Positions 3,557 to 8,138 of a stretch of 8,138 nt of DNA are shown piece by piece. How positions within the stretch are numbered: position 1 is the stretch's first letter; the number at the start of each line of letters is the position of its first letter. The notes below the pieces were generated by a model. That model saw nothing but the letters and a program-made list of their open reading frames with translations. It was not told the origin of the DNA and did not search any database. A program made the translations under genes and the position numbers. The DNA is from Oscillospiraceae bacterium. GTDB taxonomy: Bacteria; Bacillota_A; Clostridia; Oscillospirales; Oscillospiraceae. The stretch spans positions 1 through 8,138 of the forward strand of contig SVLG01000074.1 in NCBI GenBank assembly GCA_015068055.1. Direction: 5' to 3'.

Positions 3557-4303
3557 TTACCGGCACATCTCCCAGAGAATGACGGAAGCAGCCACGGCAG
3601 CATTCAATGACTCGCTGTTGGGATCCATAGGAATAATCAGGCGCTTATCACAGCGGGAGAGGAGTTCCTCGCTGAGTCCGTTGCCCTCGTTGCCCACAGC
3701 TACGGCTGCTTTCTGCAGCTGCAGCTCCCGGATGTCCACCGCCTCCCGGTGGAGGGCCGCCCCGTACAGGGGCATATTCCAGTTATCCAGCCTCTCGCAA
3801 AGCGCATCCAGACTCCACTCGGCAAAGGGCTGGCGGAAGATGGCACCCATACTGGCCCGGACGCACTTGGGGTTGTAGGGATCGGCGCAGCTGCCGCAAA
3901 GAACCACCAATCCGCTGCGGAAGGCCGCCGCGGTACGCAGCACAGTACCCACGTTGCCGGGGTCCTGCAGGTTCTCCAGCACCAGTACCCGCATCGGTGC
4001 CTCCGTGGGGTCGGCCTCGCGGATGCGTACCGTAAAAAGCGGTCCGGGGCTGTTCTCCATGGGCGAGGCATACTGCAGCAGTTCCTTGGGAGCACTCTGC
4101 TGCTTTACAGAAGCGGACAGCTCCACATCCGGCTCATCACACCAGAGAACACCGGTGATCTCCGCGCCGCACTGGATGGCCTCCCGCAGCAGCTTGCGCC
4201 CGTCGCAGAGGAACTCCCCAGCCTGACGGCGGAAGCCCCGCTCCCGACCAAGGGTGCGAAGGTATTGAATATAGGCATTTTTGCGACTTGTGATATGTTC
4301 CAT
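3557..4303 (-). CDS. SpoU/TrmH-family RNA 2'-O-ribose methyltransferase, 248 residues
   Basis: Uses S-adenosylmethionine to methylate a ribose 2'-OH in rRNA or tRNA; the target base cannot be read from sequence. The N-terminal part (about 1-95) matches the SpoU substrate-binding domain, with the region around GEFLCDGRKLLREAI (29-43). The C-terminal knotted (SPOUT) domain shows all three family motifs: motif 1 LENLQDPGNVGTVLRTAAAF (109-128) with Asn and Arg in place, motif 2 VAVGNEGNGLSEE (201-213), and motif 3 IIPMDPNSESLNAAVAASV (223-241), which forms the cofactor-binding knot. It resembles the group often annotated as RlmB-like or YsgA-like, but no specific symbol is justified. It is the first gene of its unit, 13 bases before dprA, with a promoter about 50 bases upstream. 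The start is the first ATG after an in-frame TAG at 4309-4307, so there is no earlier choice, although the ribosome binding site is badly spaced. Confidence 0.92.
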   Translation of the reverse strand: MEHITSRKNAYIQYLRTLGRERGFRRQAGEFLCDGRKLLREAIQCGAEITGVLWCDEPDVELSASVKQQSAPKELLQYASPMENSPGPLFTVRIREADPTEAPMRVLVLENLQDPGNVGTVLRTAAAFRSGLVVLCGSCADPYNPKCVRASMGAIFRQPFAEWSLDALCERLDNWNMPLYGAALHREAVDIRELQLQKAAVAVGNEGNGLSEELLSRCDKRLIIPMDPNSESLNAAVAASVILWEMCR

Positions 4304-4436: not shown

Positions 4437-6347
4437 TCAGCAGAGCTTCGCACCGGCGGGGATGCGGTTGCTGACCATGATGAGGTTGAGCTTGGTCTCT
4501 TCGCCGTCCTTATGGGTGGCGGAGATGAGCATGCCGCAGGATTCCAGACCCATCATGGCTCTGGGCGGCAGGTTGGTGATGGCGATGAGGGTCTTGCCCA
4601 CCAGCTCTTCGGGCTCATAGAACTCATGGATGCCGGAGAGGATGGTGCGCTCGGTGCCGCTGCCATCGTCCAGAGTAAACTTCAGCAGCTTCTTGGACTT
4701 CTTCACGGCCTCGCAGGCGAGAACCTTCACGGCGCGGAAATCGCATTTGCAGAAGGTATCGAAGTCCACCAGATCCGAGTAAAGAGGATCCACCGTCACA
4801 TTGGAGAAGTCGATGACTTCTTCCGCCGCGGGAACAGCTTCTTCCTTCTTCTCGGCCTTGGGCATGTCCGTAGGCTTCATCTGCGGGAAGAGCAGAACAT
4901 CACGGATGGAGTCCGAGTCGGTCAGCAGCATGACCATACGGTCAATGCCGAAGCCCAGGCCGCCGGTGGGGGCCATACCATACTCCAGCGCGGTGATATA
5001 ATCGTAGTCCACCTGTGCCTTGCAGGCGGGATCAAGGGCTTTGCGTTCCGCTACCTGACGTTCAAAACGGCCACGCTGGTCAATGGGGTCGTTGAGTTCG
5101 GAGAAGGCGTTGCCAAACTCCGTGGCGTTGATGAAGTACTCAAAGCGTTCGGTAAACTCAGGCTCCGTGGGCTTGCGCTTGGCCAGAGGGCTGATCTCCA
5201 CCGGGTAGTCATAAATAAAGGTGGGCTGGATGAGCTTCTCCTCCACAAAGGCATCGAAGAACTCCGCCAGAATGGCGCCGCGGGTGGGCACCTCGGGCAG
5301 GGCCACATTGTGGGCTTTGGCAGCCGCAATGGCATCCTCGTCGGACTTCCAATCGTAGTAGTCCACGCCGGAATACTTTTTGACCGCCTCAACCATGGTA
5401 AGGCGCTCCCAGTTGCCAAGGTCGATCTGATGGCCCTGATAGGGCACAACCATGGTGCCGCAGACCTTCTGGGCCACGCGCTTCATCATGGACTCCACGA
5501 TGTCCATCATGCCGTGGTAATCGGTATAGGCCTGATAGAGCTCAACGGTGGTGAACTCGGGGTTATGCTTGGTATCCATGCCCTCATTGCGGAAAATGCG
5601 GCCCACCTCATACACGCGATCCATGCCGCCGACAATCAGACGCTTGAGATAGAGCTCTGTCTCGATACGCAGGACCATGTCCATGTTCAGGGTATTGTGG
5701 TGAGTGGTAAAGGGACGGGCCGAAGCACCGATTTCAAAGGGAGTGAGAATGGGGGTGTCTACTTCAAGAAAGCCCAGCTCATCCAGATAGGCACGGACTT
5801 CACGCAGGATCAGGCTGCGCTTGATAAAGGTATCCTTGACCTCGGGGTTGACGATCAGGTCAACATAGCGCTGACGATAGCGCGCTTCCTTATCGGTAAG
5901 GCCGTGGAACTTCTCAGGGAGAGGCAGCAGGGCCTTGGAGAGCAGGGTGTACTCGGTGACGCGGACAGAGATCTCGCCCTTTTCGGTGCGAAACACTTCG
6001 CCCTTCACGCCAACAATATCACCAACATCCACTTTTTTCCAGTTGGCATAGGGTTCGCCCATATCGTCCCGGCGGACGTAGAGCTGGATGCGGCCTTTGG
6101 CATCCTGCAGATCGCAGAAGGAAACCTTGCCCATGCCGCGTTTGGCCATGAGACGACCGGCCAGAGAGACGACCTTGCCCTCCATAGCGTCAAAGTTATC
6201 CTTAATGTCGGCGCTGAAGGCGTCGGCATCATAGCGGGTAACGGTAAAGGGATTCTGGCCCGCCTCCTGCAGAGCGCGAAGCTTTTCCCGGCGTACCTGC
6301 TGCTCGCTGGAATCGGAAACGTTATTTCTCTTTTCTTCCTGCGCCAT
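4437..6347 (-). CDS. lysS: Lysyl-tRNA synthetase, class II, with extra C-terminal tRNA-binding domain (636 residues)
   Basis: Charges tRNA-Lys with lysine using ATP in the cytoplasm. Domains: an N-terminal helix (about 10-35); an OB-fold anticodon-binding domain (about 58-135, KVVSLAGRLMAKRGMGKVSF); and a class II catalytic core (about 150-490). The core has RYRQRYVDLIVNPE (156-169), motif 1 around GFLEVDTPILTP (192-203), ARPFTTHHN (210-218), motif 2 FRNEGMDTKHNPEFT (252-266) and motif 3 GLGFGIDRMVMLLT (463-476). Ordinary bacterial LysRS ends about here at roughly 490-500 residues. This protein continues through an Ala/Glu/Lys-rich linker (about 496-515) into a MetG/EMAP-II-like OB-fold tRNA-binding domain (about 526-636) with LLKFTLDDGSG, FYEPEELVGKT and MMGLESCGMLISA. 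The reading frame is continuous, so it is a true fusion. The start ATG has GGAG 9 bases upstream, 15 bases after greA. No T-box is seen. Confidence 0.97.
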   Translation of the reverse strand: MAQEEKRNNVSDSSEQQVRREKLRALQEAGQNPFTVTRYDADAFSADIKDNFDAMEGKVVSLAGRLMAKRGMGKVSFCDLQDAKGRIQLYVRRDDMGEPYANWKKVDVGDIVGVKGEVFRTEKGEISVRVTEYTLLSKALLPLPEKFHGLTDKEARYRQRYVDLIVNPEVKDTFIKRSLILREVRAYLDELGFLEVDTPILTPFEIGASARPFTTHHNTLNMDMVLRIETELYLKRLIVGGMDRVYEVGRIFRNEGMDTKHNPEFTTVELYQAYTDYHGMMDIVESMMKRVAQKVCGTMVVPYQGHQIDLGNWERLTMVEAVKKYSGVDYYDWKSDEDAIAAAKAHNVALPEVPTRGAILAEFFDAFVEEKLIQPTFIYDYPVEISPLAKRKPTEPEFTERFEYFINATEFGNAFSELNDPIDQRGRFERQVAERKALDPACKAQVDYDYITALEYGMAPTGGLGFGIDRMVMLLTDSDSIRDVLLFPQMKPTDMPKAEKKEEAVPAAEEVIDFSNVTVDPLYSDLVDFDTFCKCDFRAVKVLACEAVKKSKKLLKFTLDDGSGTERTILSGIHEFYEPEELVGKTLIAITNLPPRAMMGLESCGMLISATHKDGEETKLNLIMVSNRIPAGAKLC

Positions 6348-6883: not shown

Positions 6884-6912
6884 ATTATACGGAGAAAGTT
6901 CCCCCGTGTCAA
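6884..6912 (-). promoter_or_regulatory. Perfect-consensus sigma-70/SigA promoter for greA-lysS
   Basis: TTGACA (6912-6907), exactly 17 bases, then TATAAT (6889-6884): all twelve consensus bases with ideal spacing. Transcription should start near 6877, leaving a leader of about 40 bases with no recognisable riboswitch. The -35 box begins two bases after the T run of the preceding terminator. Confidence 0.9.
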
Positions 6913-6914
6913 GC

Positions 6915-6951
6915 AAAAAGCCGCGGCGGCCTTGCGCCGCCGCAGATTTTT
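6915..6951 (-). terminator. Rho-independent terminator after the S41-family gene
   Basis: An 8-base-pair all-GC stem, GCGGCGGC (6943-6936) with GCCGCCGC (6930-6923), encloses a 5-base loop and is followed by GGC and five T (6919-6915). Five A on the other side (6951-6947) can pair with the T run and make the element symmetrical, so it may act in both directions. It starts about 6 bases after the stop codon. Confidence 0.93.
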
Positions 6952-6957
6952 ACATTC

Positions 6958-8085
6958 TCAGCCCACAACGTCCTTGGCAGCCTCGAGAATAACGTCCAGA
7001 GAGCTGTCTTCAATGGCCGTGGAACGAATGTCCGGAACCACACCACCCAAAGTCTGCAGATCCTTACGCTCAGAAGTAAGGTAGCTGTACTTGGAAACGC
7101 GTACGGCACTCTTGTCGCTGAGTTCCAGCACCACCTGGTTATGGCCGTTGCCGCTGGTACGCTCTCCAACAATGGTGGCCGCACCAAAGGACTGCATCAC
7201 CGTAGCAAACATCTCTGCTTCATTCTCGGTCTTTGCATTGATGAGTACCACCATGGGCATCTCCAGCTTATCCGATCCAGAAGAATACATGGTTTCCTTA
7301 CCGTTGCGGTCGCGGCAGATGAAAAGGTCACCCTTGCCCACCAGATAATCCAGCACATTCTTGAGTTCCTCCACCCGGCCGCCGGGGTTATCGCGGACGT
7401 CCAGCAGGATGGAACGGGCCCCGTCCTTTTTCAGCGAGTTGACCGCTTCCTTCAGATAGTCAAAGCAGCCCTCCTCAAAGTTCAGGATCTGGACATAACC
7501 GATGACATTATCCTCAATGCGCCATATAACCGGCGGCGAGTAGATAATCTCACACTTGAGCTTCACGCTTCGGGTGCCGCCCTGAGCATTTTGAAGCCCC
7601 AGCGTAAACTCTTCCTCGCCAAAACTCTCCAGATAGCCGATCAGATCCTCCGGGGAGAAGGTGGAAACATCGGTGTTGTTGACGGTGGTGATCATATTGC
7701 CGATTTCGATCTGGGCCATAGCCGCGGGTGAGCCTGCCGCCACAGAAGTCACGGCCAGATAGCCGTACTTGCTGTTGAACTCCGTGCTGATACCAACACC
7801 CACATACTGGTTAGAGGCGTTGAGGAGATGCTTCTGATACTCCTCCGCGTCCATATAGTAGCTCCAATCGTCCTCCAGCGAAGCCACCATAGCCTTCGCA
7901 GAGGCATTTTCAAGGGTTGTTACTTCCACGCTGCTTACGGAATTATCCTCCAGCACGCGGATGATCTCCAGATATTTGTCGGAGGTGGCACCCTTGTCAC
8001 CCAGAAGGAGACAGCAGGCCGCCGTAACCACCGTGCAGGTAAGACACAGCAGCAGTGTCCAAACAAATCTCGGAACTCTGTTCAT
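6958..8085 (-). CDS. Membrane-anchored S41/PDZ protein (CtpA/CtpB-like), probable pseudoprotease, 375 residues
   Basis: Belongs to the carboxy-terminal processing protease family by layout, but its catalytic residues appear lost. Residues 7-28 form one hydrophobic segment, a membrane anchor or uncleaved signal. A cap region (about 60-90, SLEDDWSYYMDAEEY) and a PDZ domain (about 93-165, YVGVGIS, GSPAAMAQIEIGN) follow, then the S41 core (about 185-355) with LLDVRDNPGG (227-236), MVVLINA (278-284), ATIVGERTSGNG (303-314) and LGGVVPDI (346-353). In active members the core has a GSASASE-like segment with the catalytic Ser and, 25 residues on, Lys in FGKG. Here those positions are Asn288 (KTENEAE) and Asn313 (TSGNG); the Gln four residues later (Gln317) remains. 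Codons are AAT and AAC in an intact frame. There is no C-terminal peptidoglycan-binding domain. Start: GAGG 8 bases before the ATG, overlapping the upstream stop. A binding or scaffold role outside the membrane is inferred. Confidence 0.88.
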   Translation of the reverse strand: MNRVPRFVWTLLLCLTCTVVTAACCLLLGDKGATSDKYLEIIRVLEDNSVSSVEVTTLENASAKAMVASLEDDWSYYMDAEEYQKHLLNASNQYVGVGISTEFNSKYGYLAVTSVAAGSPAAMAQIEIGNMITTVNNTDVSTFSPEDLIGYLESFGEEEFTLGLQNAQGGTRSVKLKCEIIYSPPVIWRIEDNVIGYVQILNFEEGCFDYLKEAVNSLKKDGARSILLDVRDNPGGRVEELKNVLDYLVGKGDLFICRDRNGKETMYSSGSDKLEMPMVVLINAKTENEAEMFATVMQSFGAATIVGERTSGNGHNQVVLELSDKSAVRVSKYSYLTSERKDLQTLGGVVPDIRSTAIEDSSLDVILEAAKDVVG

Positions 8086-8095
8086 AGCTTAAACC

Positions 8096-8138
8096 TCAGC
8101 CATTATAAATAGTATAGCCGCTGTAGTAGCTCAGGGGG
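8096..8138 (-). CDS. C-terminal end of an upstream gene, possibly an M23-type murein hydrolase
   Basis: Only 13 codons are visible, read from the right edge to a TGA at 8098-8096: PLSYYSGYTIYNG. The TGA runs into the GAGG ribosome binding site of the S41-family gene 10 bases before its ATG, the same tight spacing used elsewhere in the window, which supports a real co-transcribed gene. The PLSYY start resembles the 'NPLxYL' ending of LytM/M23 peptidoglycan endopeptidases, and M23 genes often precede S41 genes in Clostridia. The family guess rests on five or so residues and on context, so it is weak; the presence of a coding end is more secure. Confidence 0.4.
   Translation of the reverse strand, partial: PLSYYSGYTIYNG

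Follow-up and report, generated by a model that had tools for sequence, protein, structure and literature searches.

The window, i.e., the whole analysed stretch of 8,138 nucleotides (contig SVLG01000074.1 of assembly GCA_015068055.1, from an Oscillospiraceae bacterium, one of a group of gut bacteria), carries on its minus strand a gene of the S41 protease family, placed between the end of envC and greA-lysS. Both the catalytic serine and the catalytic lysine of the encoded protein are replaced by asparagine, and judged from the sequence the protein is almost certainly a pseudoenzyme. The gene, its parts and the flanking elements were located as follows.

6958..8085, minus strand: gene of the predicted S41/PDZ pseudoprotease, 375 residues and a stop codon (6960-6958), assigned by ATG start, PF03572 match and alignments
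8002..8070, minus strand: N-terminal hydrophobic helix, residues 6-28, a helix in the predicted model
7540..7809, minus strand: PDZ domain, about residues 93-182, from Pfam, the model and matches to HtrA-family PDZ structures over 94-181
7024..7503, minus strand: S41 protease core, residues 195-354, from Pfam, with DVRDNPGG (229-236) and GGVVPDI (347-353)
7222..7224, minus strand: codon of Asn288, at the position of the catalytic Ser in the alignments
7147..7149, minus strand: codon of Asn313, at the position of the catalytic Lys in the alignments
6921..6945, minus strand: intrinsic terminator 3' of the S41 gene, a stem at 6945-6921 followed by a T-rich tail
6884..6912, minus strand: likely greA promoter, TTGACA-17 nt-TATAAT, a consensus match only, which separates greA-lysS from the S41 gene
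8096..8138, minus strand: 3' end of envC, the last 12 residues LSYYSGYTIYNG and a stop codon (8098-8096), the remainder lying beyond the window

The open reading frame (ORF) at 8085-6958 is open and intact. Pfam placed Peptidase_S41 (PF03572) at residues 195-354 with 113.9 bits against a cut-off of 24, and PDZ (PF00595) at residues 93-154 with 28.8 bits against 23.2, while the 169.8 bits obtained with TIGR00225 (prc) stayed below the cut-off of 218.6. Two glycines of the PDZ loop, G96 and G98, were invariant across 68 aligned proteins. The preliminary description of this DNA had listed Gln317, the PDZ domain and the DVRDNPGG and GGVVPDI motifs as retained and the reading frame as intact with its own terminator; Pfam, the alignments and the open frame agree with it, and the terminator stretch at 6905-6957 folded with z = -5.43 relative to shuffled sequences. 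The helix of residues 6-28 is, from its hydrophobic sequence, probably a membrane anchor that leaves the remainder of the protein outside the cytoplasm. Within this helix Cys14, Cys17 and Thr21-Ala22-Ala23 (8035-8046 and 8017-8025) were invariant in the 19 Asn/Asn sequences described below, a conservation unusual for a plain membrane anchor. The greA promoter at 6912-6884 is of sigma-70 type and fits at 12/12 consensus positions, and the envC tail in the window agrees with the C-terminus ...SGYTIYNG of the EnvC encoded at L002:4690-5958. Since the envC end lies upstream of the S41 gene, and a terminator and then the greA promoter lie downstream, the gene appears to be transcribed together with envC and separately from greA-lysS.

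Alignments with the photosystem II D1 protease (1fc6) and with Pseudomonas aeruginosa CtpA (7rpq) were gap-free between the catalytic sites. In them the catalytic Ser, Lys and Gln positions are occupied by N288, N313 and Q317, respectively, and an alignment of 121 proteins concurred. Consequently to this placement, the Ser and the Lys 25 residues further on are replaced and only the triad Gln is retained. The Asn288/Asn313 assignment and the 25-residue spacing had both been proposed in the preliminary description and are hereby confirmed; the interval it gave, 7147-7224, runs precisely from the codon of Asn313 to that of Asn288. No alternative Ser/Lys pair at the active site was seen in the protein alignment. 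An AlphaFold2 model of the protein reached a predicted local distance difference test score (pLDDT) of 89.7 (an earlier fold made without an alignment, pLDDT 40.4, was set aside) and matched CtpA and CtpB structures across 336-343 residues, which gives it the three-dimensional fold of the S41 family. The model lay closer to CtpB in the active state (4.3 Å over 343 residues) than in the resting state (7.7 Å over 330 residues), a likeness that may fit a permanently open holder, or may come from bias in the prediction.

Two protein searches over 5.8 billion proteins gave 257 and 123 matches at the threshold, the best 120 of each were used, and the matches listed comprise 165 different proteins with the query included. 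Among these, 85 proteins with at least 47% identity to the query (P0001-P0080 and P0122-P0126) form what we call the clade. The other listed matches had at most 38% identity, except for P0086 (partial, 49%, with an apparent frameshift), which was counted outside the clade. The pairs of residues at the Ser and Lys positions in the 85 listed clade members were CN in 19, NN in 18, SN in 13, CS in 9, DS in 8, CT in 7, CV in 3, AN in 2, and NA, CH, CD and CL in 1 each, whilst two members had no residue at the Lys column. Lys was thus kept in 0 of the 83 readable listed members, Ser and Lys together in none, and the Ser position was Asn, Cys, Asp or Ala in 72/85. The 80 S41 proteins outside the clade among the matches listed comprised 75 with SK, two single losses (GK and AK) and three that were fragmentary or misaligned. 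Because the Asn pair recurs in 18/85 listed clade members, the one in the window included, sequencing error or a one-off mutation was excluded; an Asn/Asn relative of 95% identity stands for a cluster of 12 member sequences and 4 contigs. The few available source names suggest Oscillospiraceae metagenome-assembled genomes. As for length, 78/85 listed clade members have at least 375 residues, and seven (P0074-P0080) have fewer than 371 and come from one contig each. Some of the dead clade proteins bear the database name ‘carboxyl-terminal processing protease’, which is misleading.

A quick tree and the conservation counts were based on 122 rows drawn from the 121 proteins and 67 ORFs of S41 loci, and both catalytic columns were deleted before tree building. 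Left out were 11 fragments or odd proteins, 39 more proteins (38 judged redundant, plus P0120, whose Ser position holds Gly), and 16 loci, i.e., repeats, a contig-end fragment, L004, L009, L012, L022 and L075 (three of them with Ile at the Gln position). The conservation counts in addition exclude three dead rows from beyond the main clade (L016, L036 and L047). All 55 sampled members fell into one clade with a Shimodaira-Hasegawa-like approximate likelihood ratio (SH-aLRT) of 100, on a stem of 1.02 changes per column. The dead clade is old. It divides into two subclades, Asn (19 rows, support 98) and Cys/x (36 rows, support 99), and the old active site has fared differently in the two. In the former, two segments stand out.

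7219..7227, minus strand: E287-N288-E289, present in 18, 19 and 19 of the 19 Asn/Asn rows
7135..7155, minus strand: S311-G-N-G-H315-N-Q317, with S311, G312, G314, H315 and Q317 in 19/19 and N313 in 18/19 Asn/Asn rows

The site consensus of the Asn/Asn rows is a near-invariant ENE...SGNGHxQ; the 19 rows include two pairs of near-copies, P0001/P0002 and P0005/L002. At position 289, active rows have Ala (63/64) or Gly (1/64), and the Asn/Asn rows have Glu (19/19). Entropy in the Asn/Asn rows was 0.14 bits for segment 286-293 and 0.16 bits for segment 310-317, where windows of 8 residues average 0.79 bits, which puts the two within the bottom 1.5% and 2.1% of all such windows; in the 36 Cys/x rows they ranked at 33% and 57%. 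Random pairs of windows were jointly as low in 0.04% of cases in the Asn subclade, 0.12% in active homologues and 39% in the Cys/x subclade. Further, 5 of the 27 near-invariant residues specific to the Asn subclade lie within these 16 positions (hypergeometric p 0.005, for segments picked because they contain the catalytic positions). The Gln317 position held Gln in 55/55 clade rows and 64/64 active rows, the loci with Ile there having been excluded beforehand; such loci, with Ser and Lys intact and Ile at the triad Gln, are L104 (G068), L075 (G081) and L126 (G092). G235 is missing in 31/36 Cys/x rows. Because the joint entropy ranks differ, the Asn subclade, in terms of conservation, handles the former active site like a functional one spelled in different letters, and the Cys/x subclade shows the pattern of drift. 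The region 286-293/310-317 of the Asn subclade is probably a new binding site, and new chemistry there is possible.

The codon-model ratio of non-synonymous to synonymous substitution (dN/dS) was 0.042 for the window against L002, while three Cys/x pairs gave 0.096, 0.063 and 0.090 and one active pair gave 0.064; these are rough values, as dS was 2 to 5 (saturated) in the quoted pairs, and five pairs with dS over 25 were disregarded. When the identity of FtsX was subtracted from that of S41 for the same genomes, the mean was -0.07 for dead pairs (10 pairs) and -0.06 for active pairs (120 pairs), or -0.08 for the 11 active pairs whose FtsX identity lay within the range of the dead pairs. At 37 positions, the 55 dead rows were at least 93% fixed on a residue that occurs in fewer than half of the 64 active rows, and the tree of the dead clade has short inner branches after its long stem. 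The gene in the window is, on these codon comparisons, under purifying selection. The preliminary description had regarded the protein as retained and non-enzymatic, not decaying, and the absence of Lys from all 83 readable listed members, the low dN/dS among dead pairs (0.042-0.096, with dS saturated) and the constrained site segments bear it out. Since both catalytic residues are lost and yet the protein is kept and conserved, we suggest that it now works through binding of a partner. The ftsEX-envC setting, the two courses taken by the site and the losses elsewhere, all described here, go beyond the preliminary description.

The neighbourhood was compared in 99 related genomes, which are relatives of G002; absences were counted in assemblies of unstated completeness. 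Of these, 76 had an S41 domain match and 89 an FtsX match, and FtsX, EnvC and S41 occurred together in 58/69 of the fetched loci containing S41. The typical order in the longer loci is a PucR-type regulator (HTH_30 and GGDEF_2 by Pfam), ftsE, ftsX, envC in one or two copies, S41, greA and lysS. S41 was missing in 7/10 genomes without FtsX as compared to 16/89 with it (p 0.0012, uncorrected for kinship or incompleteness). Because of the shared loci and the joint absence counts, S41 is tied to FtsEX-EnvC by position and, loosely, by presence. The genomes G001, G002, G004, G006 and G007, in which clade members are present, had exactly one S41 match each, and in G009 a gene of the clade type is interrupted by a contig end. 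Two loci lacking S41 have, between envC and greA, an ORF of roughly 250-260 residues without a Pfam match (L042:4688-5443 and L060:3769-4545). Elsewhere in the window, a lysyl-tRNA synthetase at 4437-6347 (minus strand) carries a C-terminal tRNA_bind domain (PF01588, residues 538-633), the start of which is also visible in L001, while the LysS ORF of L002 has only 496 residues; and the ORFs of a SpoU methyltransferase and dprA share 47 bases at 3557-3603.

FtsX/EnvC/S41 loci could be read for 94/99 genomes, with no row from G005, G030, G032, G037 and G065. The survey excludes three repeated loci, L004, and the short loci L005-L037 (places re-fetched at greater length); the S41/EnvC test and the tree exclude S41 ORFs shorter than 340 residues or gapped at a catalytic column, and EnvC was compared in ORFs over 380 residues only. 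S41 was typed in 68 genomes, of which 57 had active copies only, nine dead copies only (G001, G002, G004, G006, G007, G014, G071, G083 and G084) and two both. In the latter two, G070 (L081:5454-7816) and G094 (L080:64-2493), the dead S41 stands immediately before an active one; the first of the tandem has lost Ser and Lys (Gly/Ile and Asp/Ile, respectively) and the second is intact. Four switches of state, active or dead, were required by the tree of S41 copies, and at least three of them lie on well-supported branches; the tree is unrooted for direction and, as the tree programme warned, a single gain together with two losses may underlie three changes. The copy in G014 has Ser to Gly and Lys to Arg. 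Constraining it into the main dead clade was not rejected, the constrained tree even scoring higher (approximately unbiased test, p 0.904), and in a second tree it joined the active G050 weakly. Three more FtsEX-linked S41s are without the full catalytic set, namely L106:2222-3496 (Ser to Gly), L117:2033-3451 (Ser to Gly, Lys to Tyr, Gln to Asp) and L118:3847-5145 (Ser to Lys, Lys to Ile).

A change was also seen in EnvC. Among 95 EnvCs with a readable HxH motif, seven have HxD (in G004, G006, G007, G009, G070, G094 and G045), at a histidine that we take to be an M23 zinc ligand, and HxD was found in none of the 51 genomes whose S41 copies are all active and whose EnvC is readable. At four loci (L038:5800-7101, L039:7142-8404, L040:4955-6289 and L041:4833-6089) it is the second envC of a tandem pair in which the last His of HxH is Asp, and this copy stands immediately before the dead S41, truncated in L041. 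In G070 an EnvC with HLD instead of HLH adjoins the tandem S41 pair, and in G094 the HLD EnvC is on a separate contig. That dead S41 and altered EnvC are strongly linked was considered and rejected: the raw counts were 5/11 against 0/51 (Fisher p 7e-5), whereas independent pairs gave p 1, with about two origins.

Bacterial division depends centrally on FtsEX and the hydrolases that work with it, and cell-wall hydrolases are among the substrates of some carboxyl-terminal processing proteases (CTPs). On balance we lean slightly towards the window protein being a membrane-anchored, non-cutting PDZ/S41 binder or adaptor, encoded after envC in an ftsE-ftsX-envC-S41 array and acting on EnvC-type hydrolases. 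The N-terminal helix would anchor it in the membrane, and the PDZ domain together with the old substrate cleft would grip an envelope protein by its tail and leave it uncut. As its partner, the FtsEX-driven M23 hydrolase or activator of EnvC type, whose gene lies just upstream, would be likeliest, and at division the pseudoprotease would thus serve as an adaptor for cell-wall hydrolysis or hold it in check. In the Asn/Asn subclade, the former active site would be a new conserved site, most likely for binding. Several observations weigh against this adaptor role. The choice of EnvC as partner is guesswork based on gene order and on the substrates of active CTPs elsewhere, and for another M23 protein, PA3787, no significant degradation by P. 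aeruginosa CtpA (PaCtpA) was observed (PMC6050968). The HLD link of EnvC is not significant once corrected for kinship, with the two origins or so given above; EnvC and S41 of G094 are on different contigs; and an EnvC with PHLDF at L090 occurs in G045, a genome without an S41 match, therefore the change in EnvC also occurs alone. G002, the only relative with both an Asn/Asn protein and a read locus, has HxH in both EnvCs, and the change was therefore not observed in the subclade to which the window protein belongs. In the four dead pairs made up of one member from each subclade, S41 diverged faster, by -0.13 to -0.16 relative to FtsX, and dS is saturated in the dN/dS pairs. Finally, 23/99 relatives have no S41 match and several of them retain ftsEX-envC-greA, therefore S41 is not essential for FtsEX-EnvC in general.

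In the Asn/Asn subclade S311, H315 and E287/E289 around N288/N313 might instead make up a new catalytic, metal or small-ligand site, e.g., for a peptidoglycan stem peptide. We regard this as unlikely, even if the segments 286-293/310-317 are among the lowest in entropy in these rows, unlike in the Cys/x rows, five of 27 subclade-specific residues fall in the 16 site positions (p 0.005), and a Ser, a His and acidic residues are all there; a structural lock or a peptide-binding role would give equal conservation, and the 19 rows are related, include two near-copy pairs and have a known locus only for L002. The same modest weight goes to its fuller form, in which E287/E289, N288, S311, N313, H315 and Q317 would be a re-invented functional site in an FtsEX-EnvC-linked envelope protein and the sister subclade a plain scaffold. 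Less probable again is a slowly fading gene, its S41 activity dispensable and the protein heading for loss as in the 23 S41-less relatives. Such fading would agree with the retention of ftsEX-envC-greA in several of these, with the seven listed clade proteins of fewer than 371 residues and the frameshifted-looking P0086, and with the lack of a stretch of a motif in the aligned P0075-P0077. However, P0074-P0080 and P0086 are each on one contig and may therefore be errors of assembly or gene calling, 78/85 listed members have at least 375 residues, and the low dN/dS, a divergence resembling that of active homologues, the short inner branches behind the long stem and the 37 positions fixed in dead rows all speak for retention.

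That the protein is still a protease of a non-canonical kind, with a Cys nucleophile in the C/x members or by substrate-assisted catalysis, seems very improbable. Cys is the most frequent residue at the Ser position of the C/x subclade, Gln317 is kept in 55/55 clade rows and Ser in 13/85 listed members. Nevertheless, Lys is lost in every readable listed member, Cys swaps with Ser, Asp and Ala inside the C/x subclade, G235 is missing from most of its rows, and position 289, by analogy with Ala453 of Prc the amide of the oxyanion hole (PMC6686036), is Glu in 19/19 Asn/Asn rows. Mutations point the same way: S302A and K327A each abolish the activity of PaCtpA in vivo, with only a minor effect of Q331A (PMC11021448), and in CtpB, whose triad is Ser309-Lys334-Gln338, activity is abolished by Q338E, and S309A, which still binds a PDZ peptide, is called inactive (PMC3808539). 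Of the roles that the preliminary description named, scaffold and peptide-binding sensor are still plausible, and decoy is disfavoured. The dead S41 standing immediately before an active one in G070 and G094 shows that such an arrangement exists in other lineages, but we find a decoy or regulatory subunit for an active S41 protease of the same cell more improbable still, because 5/5 relatives with a full-length clade member lack a second S41 match in their assemblies of unstated completeness. CtpB takes part in sporulation signalling in Bacillus subtilis. Loss of catalysis following loss of sporulation was also considered, as G006 and G084 had no SpoIVB match; it is hardly credible, because SpoIVB (PF05580) was found in 10/12 genomes with a dead or truncated S41, and in 88/99 overall.

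As an adaptor, the window protein would be a natural counterpart of the engineered mutants CtpA-S302A and Prc-K477A. PaCtpA breaks down four cell-wall hydrolases, two of M23 and two of NlpC/P60 type, and MepM was trapped by the inactive S302A variant (PMC6050968); Prc-K477A was observed liganded (PMC6686036); and S300A/K325A/Q329A of Helicobacter pylori CtpA is an engineered dead triple mutant (PMC12749690). In listings and abstract openings of the open-licence literature, we found no naturally dead bacterial CTP described, and none at an FtsEX locus. If the only CTP found in a genome is dead and yet conserved at FtsEX-EnvC, a binding role would be separable from the cutting role, and the testable question arises whether holding M23 hydrolases is part of how CTPs control them. 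The same dead site with two fates, drift and new conservation, would be a natural case of pseudoenzymes gaining functions, parallel to IRBP of animals. Were the re-invented site true, as a Ser-His-acid catalyst, a metal site or a peptidoglycan pocket, a protease would have turned into another enzyme or a sensor in place.

Compared to CtpA, CtpB and Prc (S41, PF03572), the window protein is without the catalytic Ser and Lys, has Glu at 289, does not reach the TIGR00225 cut-off, and has S311 and H315 fixed in its subclade. The engineered dead CTPs (CtpA-S302A, CtpB-S309A, Prc-K477A and the H. pylori triple mutant) are disabled at the same positions. Unlike these, the change in the window's clade is natural, old and fixed, with new conserved residues round the site in the Asn/Asn subclade. 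The closest natural case is IRBP/RBP3 of chordates, an S41 descendant that has lost the Ser several times (PMC10450429). This is an animal protein of bacterial origin, a retinoid carrier without FtsEX context; it resembles the window protein in fold, and nothing points to retinoid binding in the latter. In its proposed role the protein would be like EnvC and other non-enzymatic LytM/M23 activators, in which an inactive hydrolase fold controls other hydrolases (PMC8416486). Those activators have the M23 fold, whereas here the dead protein is an S41 protease encoded beside EnvC.
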